64,000 nucleotides of DNA, taken from positions 1 through 64,000 of the forward strand of contig JAKPKV010000042.1 of NCBI GenBank assembly GCA_029553475.1, written 5' to 3'. The notes under the pieces were generated by a model that did not search any database, was not told where the DNA came from, and saw only the letters and a list, made by a program, of their open reading frames with translations. This DNA is from Armatimonadota bacterium (GTDB lineage: Bacteria > Armatimonadota > Hebobacteria > CAIYQO01). A program made the position numbers and the translations under genes. Shown here in pieces: positions 15,436 through 19,001 of the stretch. Numbering within the stretch: the stretch's first letter is position 1; every line of letters starts with the position of its first letter.

Positions 15436-16032
15436 ATGATGGGGGTGTCCGATGCACAACTCGTGCAGCGCATCGGCCGGCGAGACGCGGCGGCATTCGA
15501 GAGCTTGTACGCGCGGCATCGCGCGGCTATTCGGCGCCACCTGCAGCGGATCGTGCGCGATGCCGATGCGGCGGATGATCTGACGCAGGAGACGTTTCTT
15601 CGCGTATGGACGCGCGCCGAACAGTGGGACGGCCGCGGCGGATGCGCGGGATGGCTGCTGCGCATCGCGACGAATCTCGCGCTCAACAGCATACGGGCAC
15701 GACGCCGGCGGCGCGAGGTGCCGCTGGAGGCGCCCCCCTCCTCCCGTGAGGCGGAGGAGGAGGCGCCGCCGGGATGGCTGGTGGATGCCGCCGCGCTGGG
15801 CCCCGAAGACTACTGCCTGCGGGAGGAGCGCCTGCGCCTGCTGCGGCGTCTCATTCACGCCCTCCCTGACGACAAGCGCGCCGTGGTGCGGCTGGCGCAC
15901 GAGTCGGAGATGGAGATGCAGGACATCGCCGCGCGCCTCGGCGTGCCGGAAGGCACCGTGAAATCCCGCCTGCACTACGCGCGAAAGGCGCTGCGGGAAG
16001 CCTGGCACGAGTTGGGAATGGAGGAAGAATAA
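15436..16032 (+). CDS. ECF-type RNA polymerase sigma-70 factor
   Basis: sigma2 (FESLYARHRAAIRRHLQRIVRDADAADDLTQETFLRVW) and sigma4 HTH (MEMQDIAARLGVPEGTVKSRLHYARKALRE). Confidence 0.95.
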   Translation: MMGVSDAQLVQRIGRRDAAAFESLYARHRAAIRRHLQRIVRDADAADDLTQETFLRVWTRAEQWDGRGGCAGWLLRIATNLALNSIRARRRRREVPLEAPPSSREAEEEAPPGWLVDAAALGPEDYCLREERLRLLRRLIHALPDDKRAVVRLAHESEMEMQDIAARLGVPEGTVKSRLHYARKALREAWHELGMEEE

Positions 16033-19001
16033 TGCATGCGCCCCACGCGTTCTGGCACCGTGAATCCTTCGACCGCTTCACGCGCGAGCGCCTGCCGGCG
16101 CTGCTGGCGGCGCGCCTGCCGCTGACCGGCTACCGCGTGGAAGACGCGGAACGCTCCTGCCGCATCACCGTGATGCTGGCCGACGCGGAAGCCGTCTACA
16201 CGCTGCCGCGCCCCGATGCCGACGGGCTCTTCCACCGCTGGGAGCACCCGTGGATCGTGGTGCCGCTGGCCTCGTCGGAAGAGCTGGCGACGGCGGAGAT
16301 CGCCTGCGTGGGCGAGCAACTGGCGGCGCACATCGAGGCGCGCCTGGGAGAAATCGCCGCCGACCTGCCGTGGGACGAGGCGCTCATCCGCGCCGTGCTG
16401 CCGCTGGAGAGCTGGGGCGAGGAGATCATCAATCCCACCATCAATGCTGATCCGTATAATATCCGCAAGACCGGGCAATGGCTGGACATCACCAACCGGC
16501 TGGCGATGCTCACCCACCAGCGGCGCGTCATCGTGCCGGAGTGCGCGCAGGTGTTTCCCCCCGGGCAAGTCGGCCGCGTCTGCCCGTTCGAGACGCCGGA
16601 AGGACCGAACATCGGACACGTCTTCAGCCTGGCGCTGGGGGCGGTCATCCGCGATGGGCGTATCGTCATCGAGGACGGCGCGCCGGAAGCGATGCTGGGC
16701 CTGTCCGCCGCGCTGCTGCCCTTCCTGGAGCACAACGAGCCGAATCACGTGACCTTCGCGGCGAATCAGCAGCGCCAGTGGCTGCCCCCGCTGGCGCCGG
16801 AGCCCGCGCTGGTGCGCACCGGCAACGAGCCGGATCTCCCCGGCATCTGGGGCGGCTACAACCTGCTCACCGCCGTGGTCGCCGGCGACGCCGACACCTA
16901 CGAGGACGCCATGCTCATCAGCGCGTCCTGCGCCGCGCGCCTGCACTACGCCGCCCCGGTAGAGCCGGGCGACAAGTGGAGCAACCGTCATGGTCTGAAA
17001 GGCGTCATCAGCCGCATCGTCCCGGACGCCGAGATGCCGCACCTGCCGGATGGCACGCCCATCGAGGCGGTGTACAGCGCCGCCGGCGTCCTCTCGCGGC
17101 AGGTGCTGGGGATGGCGCGTGAGATGGTGATGAGCCGCGTCGCCATCGCGGAAGGGCAGCCGGCCATGGTGCCGCCGTATGGCGCGCCGTCCTCCGCGGC
17201 GCTCCGCGCGCGGCTGGCGGCGGCGGGCCTGCCGGAGGACGGGCTGGAGACGCTGACGCTGGACGGGCAGCCGCTGCCGTATCGCGCCTGCGTCGGATGG
17301 GTGTACTGGGGGCGGACGGCGCATACGGCCGCCGACAAGCTGCACGCCGGCGAGCGCGCCGCGGCGCAGGGGGAGCTGGAGTTCCTGGCGCTGCGCGATA
17401 TCGGCGCGTGGCAGACGATCCTGGAGACGTATAACACCCGCTCCGCCGAGCGTCCGGATGCCGAGACCCTCGCCGCGCGCGTCGCCGCCGGGCCAGTGCC
17501 GCAGGCGCCGCCGCCCACGCCGCATTTTGCCATGCTGACACGGCGGCTGGCGGCGGTGGGTATCGCCGCCGAATTCGCCGGCGACCGGGTGGGCTTCCGC
17601 TTCGCGCCCGGCGACGGCCTGCCGTTGGCGCTGCCGGTGCCGCACCCCTGGTCGCGTGAGCGGGAGTTGACCGCCCTCGGCGAGATCGCCGGCGTGCCCG
17701 GCTGGGCGGAGGTGGTCGAGGCCAACACCCGCCTGGCGCGCCTGCGCGACACCGGCGCGCCGGAGAGCCTGGCGCGGCAGGCGCAGGCGCGGCTGGCGGC
17801 GGCGGTGTGGACGTATGCCGATCAATTGGTGACGCCCAGGGAGCTGCGCCCCTCCGCGCGCAACCTGTTCAGCGCCCGGACCGTGCTGGCGCCGGCGCGC
17901 GACCTATCGCTCGCGCACCTGGGGGTGCCGGACGAGATCGCCAAGGCGCTCTTTGGCCCGGTCGCGCGCGGGGATGCGCTGGATGCGGTGATGGCGCGCT
18001 CATGGATCATGCTCACCCGCGCGCCCGCCGTCATGCCGACGTCGCTGCTCGCGTTTCGCCCGGTGCGCGTGCCGGGGCGGGCCATCCGCCTGCCCATCCT
18101 TGCCGCCATGCTGCTGAATGCCGATTTCGACGGCGACCAGGCGGCGCTGTTCCTGCCCGTCACCGAGGCCGGACAGCGCGAAGCGGGGGAGAAGCTGACG
18201 GTCGCCGCCCACCTGCGGCGCGATCCCACGCTCATCCGCTGGCTGTGCCCCTCCCATCAGGCGATGCTCGGGCTGGCACAGGTGAGCCTGACGACCGACG
18301 GGCAGGCGGAGATCGCGGCTGCCGCGGGCGGCCCGGTTGCGGCGCCGGAGGGGTATCTCACCCGCGCGGCGCTCACCGAGGCGCTGGCGGCCGTGCTGGC
18401 GCGGGACGGCGCGGAGGCGGCGCTCGCCGCCGCCGAGCGGCTGGCCGCGCTGGGATTGGCGGCCGCGCGCAACAGCGGCGCGTCAGTCAGCCCGTTCTTC
18501 GCCGAGTCGCTGGCGCTGCCGCCGGCGCCGGCGGGTGACGACGCGGCGGCATGGCAGACCTACGCCGGGGCGGTGAGCGAACGGCTGGCGGCGTCACACG
18601 ACTTTCACGCGGCGGATGTCGGGCCGGCGCTGCTGGCGGTCAAAAGCGGCGCCCGGGGGCGTATTGCCGCGCTGCAGCGGCTGATCGGCCCCATCGGCCC
18701 GGTCGCGGACAGTCGCGGGGAGACGGCGCTCGTCCGCCGTGGCTACCGCGACGGATTGACACAGGCGGAGCACCTCGCGCTGGTGCCCGGCGCGCGGGAG
18801 AACCTGGCCGCCGTGGCCGAGGCAACGACGCGGTGGGCGTACGGCCTGCGTGAGGCGAACGGTCCGCGCGGCTTCACCGCCCTCGCGCGCGCCATGCGCG
18901 CCGCGCACCCGGGCATCGTCTTCGCCCACGCGGCCGCCATCGAGGAGGTGGATCCGCTGGTGGATGCCGACAGCCGGCTGTTTGTCGGGCTGCACCCCTG
19001 A
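16032..19001 (+). CDS. Single-chain miniature beta/beta'-fused multisubunit-type RNA polymerase homologue (989 aa)
   Basis: RpoB-like then RpoC-like motifs in one chain: [77 protein letters not shown]; then [38 protein letters not shown]...[22 protein letters not shown]. TAATG overlap with sigma gene. Confidence 0.93.
   Translation: [989 protein letters not shown]

Follow-up and report, generated by a model that had tools for sequence, protein, structure and literature searches.

Single-chain RNA polymerases (RNAPs) featuring two catalytic barrels are known from phages, prophages, eukaryotic RNA interference, and fungal plasmids (PMC5467207, PMC10770324, PMC7824862, PMC7281927, PMC6211774), and YonO-like proteins reside also in the main genomes of firmicutes and cyanobacteria (PMC5467207). 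Two-barrel enzymes are divided into two major clades, the first of which holds the cellular RNAPs and their fused derivatives (PMC10770324). The module analyzed here was identified in a stretch of 64,000 nucleotides (nt; hereafter the window), corresponding to positions 1 to 64,000 of contig JAKPKV010000042.1 (assembly GCA_029553475.1) of an Armatimonadota bacterium. It is made by two overlapping genes, encoding a sigma factor of the extracytoplasmic function (ECF) type and a protein of 989 amino acids (aa) which an earlier annotation, made from the letters alone (the sequence-only reading), had taken for a previously undescribed mini RNAP. In the textbook view bacteria have one RNAP core, which swaps sigma factors. 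The two genes probably constitute a functional pair of dedicated sigma and single-chain RNAP, self-driven, and derived from a bacterial beta/beta' core. Single-chain two-barrel polymerases are already known; what is new is the pairing with a sigma, and the logic of the operon. No sigma-paired bacterial single-chain polymerase was found in full-text literature searches of partial coverage, so that prior mention is possible; within that coverage the claim of novelty stands.

The polymerase gene is an uninterrupted open reading frame (ORF) of 989 codons (16032-19001; plus strand, as all features below unless otherwise indicated). Frame and motifs are as given in the sequence-only reading, including NADFDGD at nt 18117-18137. 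Pfam domains are arrayed along the protein in the order RNA_pol_Rpb2_3 (aa 149-204, 3.5e-9), Rpb2_6 (aa 310-442, 8.9e-24) and Rpb1_2 (aa 655-720, 2.1e-15). Profile-profile comparisons (hhalign) to alignments of RpoB and of RpoC from a diverse set of bacteria sorted the chain into three segments. Residues 8-78 (16053-16265) match beta 25-129 (E 4.7e-6), and are a remnant of the beta N-terminal region (protrusion). Residues 80-518 (16269-17585) correspond to beta 378-1326 (E 4.7e-67, 29% identity), and span the fork/rifampicin region and the catalytic barrel down to the beta C-terminus, without lobe and flap. Residues 533-943 (17628-18860) correspond to beta' 360-893 (E 5.1e-47, 26% identity), and include clamp helices, catalytic barrel, F-loop region and bridge helix. 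Both the Pfam order and the hhalign data bear out the collinear RpoB-then-RpoC fusion initially proposed. As judged from sequence, the protein is an RpoB half (aa 8-518) joined in one chain to an RpoC half (aa 533-943), from which whole domains have been removed. Normal rpoB and rpoC genes, the search for which had been suggested as a check, are both present in the same genome, on another contig (C131), and this closes the case in which the fused gene would be the sole rpoB/rpoC of the genome.

Conservation of single residues was read from 17 aligned family copies, from two phyla, numbered according to E. coli beta and beta'. The metal-binding triad of the NADFDGD motif (aa 696-702; 18117-18137) is formed by D698, D700 and D702, equivalent to beta' D460, D462 and D464, and DxDxD is found in 17/17 copies. 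The basic-pair motif of the beta barrel (aa 313-324; 16968-17003) hosts K315 and K323, aligned to the two lysines pointed out in the sequence-only reading, beta K1065 and K1073. Both positions are basic in all copies: the K1073 equivalent is kept in 17/17, the K1065 equivalent is lysine in 15, and arginine in two copies from one genus. In the latter (L159 and L160, from genomes G075 and G076) GDR replaces GDK at the first lysine, and the usual GVV following the second lysine is changed to CTV or CTI. Beta E565 and N568 are kept in 17/17 copies, and beta R678, H1237 and R1106, and beta' R425 and R731, are mostly kept. Frequent loss of the catalytic motifs among homologues, which would have argued against the proposal, was thus not observed. 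The catalytic barrels appear to be supplied by both halves, the Asp triad by beta', the basic pair by beta.

Large parts of the canonical subunits are missing from the mini polymerases. Absent from the beta half are residues 148-441 (lobe region), 600-650, 706-788, 825-871 and 878-1057 (flap region), and 1125-1178; absent from the beta' half are most of the N-terminal zinc region and residues 804-1250 (trigger loop, jaw). The clamp-helix coiled coil of beta', which normally docks sigma region 2, is retained (aa 558-599; 17703-17828), as denoted by hhalign and by two long helices in the structure model. The stretch with RGYRDGLTQ belongs to the bridge-helix region, the equivalent of the bridge helix being at aa 918-942 (18783-18857), where the model features a long helix. 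Most hallmark residues of the region differ, and what follows offers no alignable trigger loop. A C-terminal ARAMR..PG stretch was considered as a counterpart of the trigger-loop MR..HxG, and discarded: the histidine is not conserved, and the stretch fits better the beta' C-terminal region. The model, obtained by running AlphaFold2 on a 19-member family alignment, has a mean predicted local distance difference test score (pLDDT) of 88.1 and a predicted template modelling score (pTM) of 0.84. A Foldseek search of PDB with the model returned RpoB chains at a TM-score of ~0.40 of the query, and RpoC chains at 0.31-0.34, every match having a probability of 1.00. Such partial TM-scores are expected if each PDB chain covers one half of the protein, and the predicted fold thus agrees with the fusion anticipated earlier. 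Matches in a viral structure library were weaker, and were to RNAPs of large viruses.

The gene located immediately upstream codes for an ECF sigma factor of 198 aa (15436-16032; start at ATG 15436 or 15439), with Sigma70_r2 (1.8e-16), Sigma70_r4_2 (1.4e-13) and TIGR02937 (8.6e-30) matches, and regions 2 and 4 only. Stop and start codons of the two genes overlap in a TAATG sequence (16030-16034), and the ribosome-binding site of the polymerase gene, GGAGG, lies within the 3' end of the sigma gene (16020-16024). A GGGAGGA sequence, and overlapping or abutting stop and start codons, recur in most homologues. The ECF-sigma linkage reported for the window is in fact a constant of the family. An orthologous ECF sigma gene, in the same orientation, directly precedes, overlapping or abutting, the polymerase start in 21/21 copies for which upstream sequence is available, and is the sole neighbour conserved over many genera. 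When the window sigma was compared to 292 genomes of the phylum, the best 17 matches (E <= 2.1e-33) were exactly the polymerase-linked sigmas; the next match (1.7e-30) came from a genome with no polymerase, and was followed by ordinary ECF sigmas. No orthologue of the sigma was found in the searched genomes of the phylum lacking the polymerase. Distance matrices of sigma and polymerase are correlated (r = 0.70, above all 5000 permutations), for which ancestry shared through linkage is a sufficient cause. No anti-sigma gene was detected among the conserved neighbours of the module; linked anti-sigma genes are common, not universal, for ECF sigmas.

A candidate promoter, TGAACC-N14-GGTGTC, is found at 15393-15418 (-35 at 15393-15398, -10 at 15413-15418), separated by 20 nt from the ATG at 15439, and is conserved in the orthologous upstream regions. 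The shared element, TGAAC[C/T]-N14-GGTGTC with minor variants, lies 12-57 nt 5' of the assigned sigma start, and GAAC-N14..17-GTGTC was found in 19/20 upstream regions (spacing of 16 in 17, of 15 in two); 500 mononucleotide shuffles yielded 0.03 on average, and 1 at most. At the two remaining loci (G028 and G276) a similar element resides 617 and 720 nt, respectively, before the sigma stop. GAAC at -35 and GTC at -10 are the form of ECF promoters; the surroundings of the operon yielded no promoter of sigma-70 type. Conservation and ECF form point to the element as a promoter, with a putative role in the sigma's own operon. The sequence TGAACCCG occurs twice, 16 nt apart, at 15377-15384 and 15393-15400 of the window. 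The downstream copy provides the -35 element of the promoter described above; the upstream one could be a second site, or a repeat arisen by chance. Genomes were also searched for additional copies, with a strict pattern in 40, and with a looser pattern in four. The extra copies were discarded as members of a regulon, as those inspected fell inside ORFs, and the looser pattern was no commoner than a reversed-pattern control. Further, looser targets may exist.

Mini polymerases are carried by some bacteria. Among the source genome and 60 relatives, 9/61 carry a full or near full-length copy, the copies other than that of the window being 42-78% identical to it; the remaining genomes yielded canonical matches or none. 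On a larger scale, the family was identified in 18/292 genomes of the phylum, and in 4/399 sampled Chloroflexota. A prepilin with an LFPVFA..KEKARQT signature, encoded in a relative, hints at Armatimonadota as the phylum of the window. None of the mini polymerases was found in the three phyla to which an actinomycete, a Bryobacterales and a Clostridia genome belong (248, 199 and 200 genomes, respectively; 647 in all), empty results being weaker evidence. A scan of genome contigs with the most conserved peptides, which are universal, gave no family member, matches being swamped by canonical rpoBC. By tblastn, phages and plasmids gave canonical-type matches only, and no close relatives were found in phage, plasmid, and viral-contig collections. 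The ratio of nonsynonymous to synonymous substitutions (dN/dS) is 0.11-0.20 in four close pairs of mini polymerase genes. Such purifying selection, as the frame, intact in most copies, sustains the earlier argument that the gene is not a pseudogene.

A tree drawn from concatenated beta and beta' columns recovers the family as monophyletic (100%), its stem being as long as 1.4 substitutions per site. Its members are 26-29% identical to every bacterial RNAP tested, that of the host included, and 20-23% to phage RNAPs. Being about equally distant from all bacterial RNAPs tested, the family was not recently derived from host genes. The place of the family inside the bacterial tree, where the stem falls next to phage and Patescibacteria branches, likely reflects a long-branch effect, and is not trusted. 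The family tree conflicts with the RpoB/RpoC tree of the hosts: copies from the same class as the window (G005 and G011) are found in another of the major clades, and those from Chloroflexota are embedded among copies of the window's phylum. Horizontal transfer, or an old duplication followed by losses, may account for the conflict. YonO and crAss-like gp66 had been listed among the analogues of the protein. When the family profile was compared by hhalign, probability was 0.1-1.6% for phi3T YonO pieces, phi14:2 gp66, and P23-45 gp64 and gp96, and 100% for RpoB and 99.9% for RpoC single sequences. Closeness to the two phage proteins was therefore not found, and what stood is the affinity to the lineage of cellular RNAPs. 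In a profile scan the protein scored best against bacterial RpoB models. By the profile test the family falls with the first, cellular clade (PMC10770324), not with that of the phage single-chain enzymes.

The way the module may work can be outlined as follows. The ECF sigma would recognize the private promoter before the operon, and the single-chain core would supply DNA-dependent RNA synthesis. We propose that, by reading the promoter of its own operon, the sigma makes the module drive its own synthesis. The sequence data suggest that the fused protein is active as a polymerase; it would contact the sigma physically, and presumably it would be the mini polymerase, instead of the host enzyme, to read the operon promoter. 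Because flap, jaw, zinc ribbon and an alignable trigger loop are missing, a simple polymerase is expected, blind to host regulators which bind those parts. There is about an even chance that the module is a second, orthogonal system, flap-less, trigger-loop-less and sigma-initiated, residing in the chromosomes of two phyla. It would be the smallest sigma-dependent RNAP, and the first bacterial core found beside the housekeeping one.

Several observations weigh against a polymerase driven by its own sigma. The bridge-helix residues T786 and T790 are not conserved across the 17 aligned copies, in none of which the trigger-loop residues M932, R933 and H936 have a counterpart. In-frame stops, due to decay or sequencing error, interrupt 2/22 copies (L157 in G247 and L172 in G630), in which the adjoining sigma genes are open, and suggest that some hosts may do without the module. 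In the 40 genomes searched with the strict pattern, and the four searched with the looser one, no target gene was found besides the operon itself, its own site being the only gene-proximal copy among those inspected. The clamp-helix positions beta' R275, E295 and R297, known as contacts of sigma, are replaced. The beta flap, to which sigma usually binds (PMC7824862), and which anchors sigma region 4 in known holoenzymes, is gone. Loss of the flap, and changes at the three clamp-helix contacts, make engagement of the sigma less certain than the sequence-only reading implied. With no flap present, the conservation of the -35 element at a fixed distance leaves two options: region 4 is held by other means, as favoured by sigma and polymerase being inherited only together, or the host core reads the promoter, as favoured by the ordinary look of the sigma.

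If the host core reads the promoter, the sigma would serve the host RNAP, and the mini polymerase would be its output, acting independently of sigma on some other template (primed, single-stranded or RNA, for example). Ordinary regions 2 and 4, and a promoter of ordinary ECF form, fit this alternative, as do the missing flap and the three changed contact positions. Independence from sigma would also suit an active site poor in trigger-loop residues, which recalls that of YonO, devoid of detectable trigger-loop homology (PMC5467207). This arrangement does not account for the absence of the sigma from the searched genomes of the phylum that lack the polymerase, nor for the retention of the clamp-helix coiled coil, and we regard it as unlikely, though deserving attention. 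The fused protein might alternatively be no polymerase, but a decoy or anti-sigma, holding the sigma and tuning its action on the host core. Neighbours of the module include no conserved anti-sigma gene, and the operon has its own ECF-type promoter, an arrangement common to many ECF/anti-sigma pairs. Catalytic residues would be dispensable for a decoy, and the Asp triad and the basic pair are kept down to ~40% identity, which makes this role quite improbable. A phage or plasmid polymerase, lodged in chromosomes as a decaying relic, would explain the patchy distribution, the discordance between gene and host RpoB/RpoC trees, and the two copies carrying stops. Most copies are intact, evolve under the constraint measured above, and are not flanked by conserved phage genes, and no close relatives were found in the phage, plasmid or viral-contig collections; we consider such an origin very improbable. 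That the gene is an assembly or annotation artefact of broken rpoB and rpoC is hardly conceivable, as the same architecture, sigma included, is found at 22 loci in two phyla, and intact rpoB and rpoC reside in the genome of the window. Homologues in so many genomes rule out chance and misassembly.

No downstream partner of the polymerase is conserved among the homologous loci. In the window the polymerase gene is directly followed by a gene for a stand-alone response regulator receiver protein (19072-19461), not conserved near homologues. Divergent to the sigma gene is an ORF encoding a 174-aa protein without any Pfam match (14642-15163, minus strand), a relative of which adjoins the module also in a genome of the same genus (L025, 6978-7526). 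An AccI-like restriction endonuclease and an N6 adenine methylase are encoded as a pair in a stretch of lower G+C content (8440-10945, minus strand), and a FitA-like antitoxin and a PIN-domain toxin at 23251-23978. A role in a defence island was considered and discarded: the polymerase has no PADLOC match, and conservation near homologues does not extend to the restriction-modification pair, which lies at a distance of 5 kb. No phage genes are conserved around the mini polymerase loci.

A conserved chromosomal second core, paired to a sigma, would if confirmed break the one-core rule. It would show how much beta and beta' can be stripped, down to a minimal two-barrel polymerase deprived of trigger loop and flap, while catalysis stays, and would offer to orthogonal gene expression a natural polymerase made of a single chain (~105 kDa) and programmed by a sigma. 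The module also makes the flap requirement of sigma-dependent initiation directly testable.

Compared to bacterial RpoB and RpoC, the mini polymerase retains ~28% identity over ~1000 columns, and core motifs in the same order, but is one chain, and lacks flap, lobe, jaw, zinc ribbon and an alignable trigger loop. The rpoBC fusions of Helicobacter and Wolbachia (PRK09603, PRK14844) similarly feature beta and then beta' in one polypeptide. Their models measure 2839-2890 aa, in contrast to 989 aa, and the mini polymerase reaches 95-114 bits where their cut-offs are 5372 and 4632. Those fusions are the only enzyme of the cell, whereas the mini polymerase is additional to separate rpoB and rpoC. 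YonO, crAss-like gp66, and P23-45 gp64/gp96 also have both barrels in one chain, but are phage-encoded, and we know of no sigma partner for any of these polymerases. YonO-like enzymes similarly lack the flap module (PMC7824862), and the YonO-like proteins of bacterial chromosomes are a different group by the profile test. K2ORF6p of the yeast killer plasmids is a beta fused to part of beta', and belongs to a two-subunit RNAP of poxvirus-like origin, which has its own upstream element (PMC6211774). Jumbo and other phage RNAPs (mReC lineage, AR9/phiKZ type) share with the mini polymerase a diverged beta/beta' of cellular type, but are about twice as long or split, and form a separate clade; group 1 jumbo phages have no sigma (PMC7824862). 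Fused beta-beta' ORFs with motifs of cellular type, 1.8-2.1 thousand aa long, were also noticed in environmental viral contigs from IMG/VR (L131 3643-9927, L132 3826-10074, L141 3712-9966, L120 3802-9756, L116 3763-9210), and the fused viral ORFs placed in the tree make a clade separate from the window family. The sigma itself resembles autoregulated ECF sigmas, having regions 2 and 4 only, and a GAAC/GTC-type promoter before its own gene; its partner, unlike the anti-sigma of those systems, is a polymerase core.

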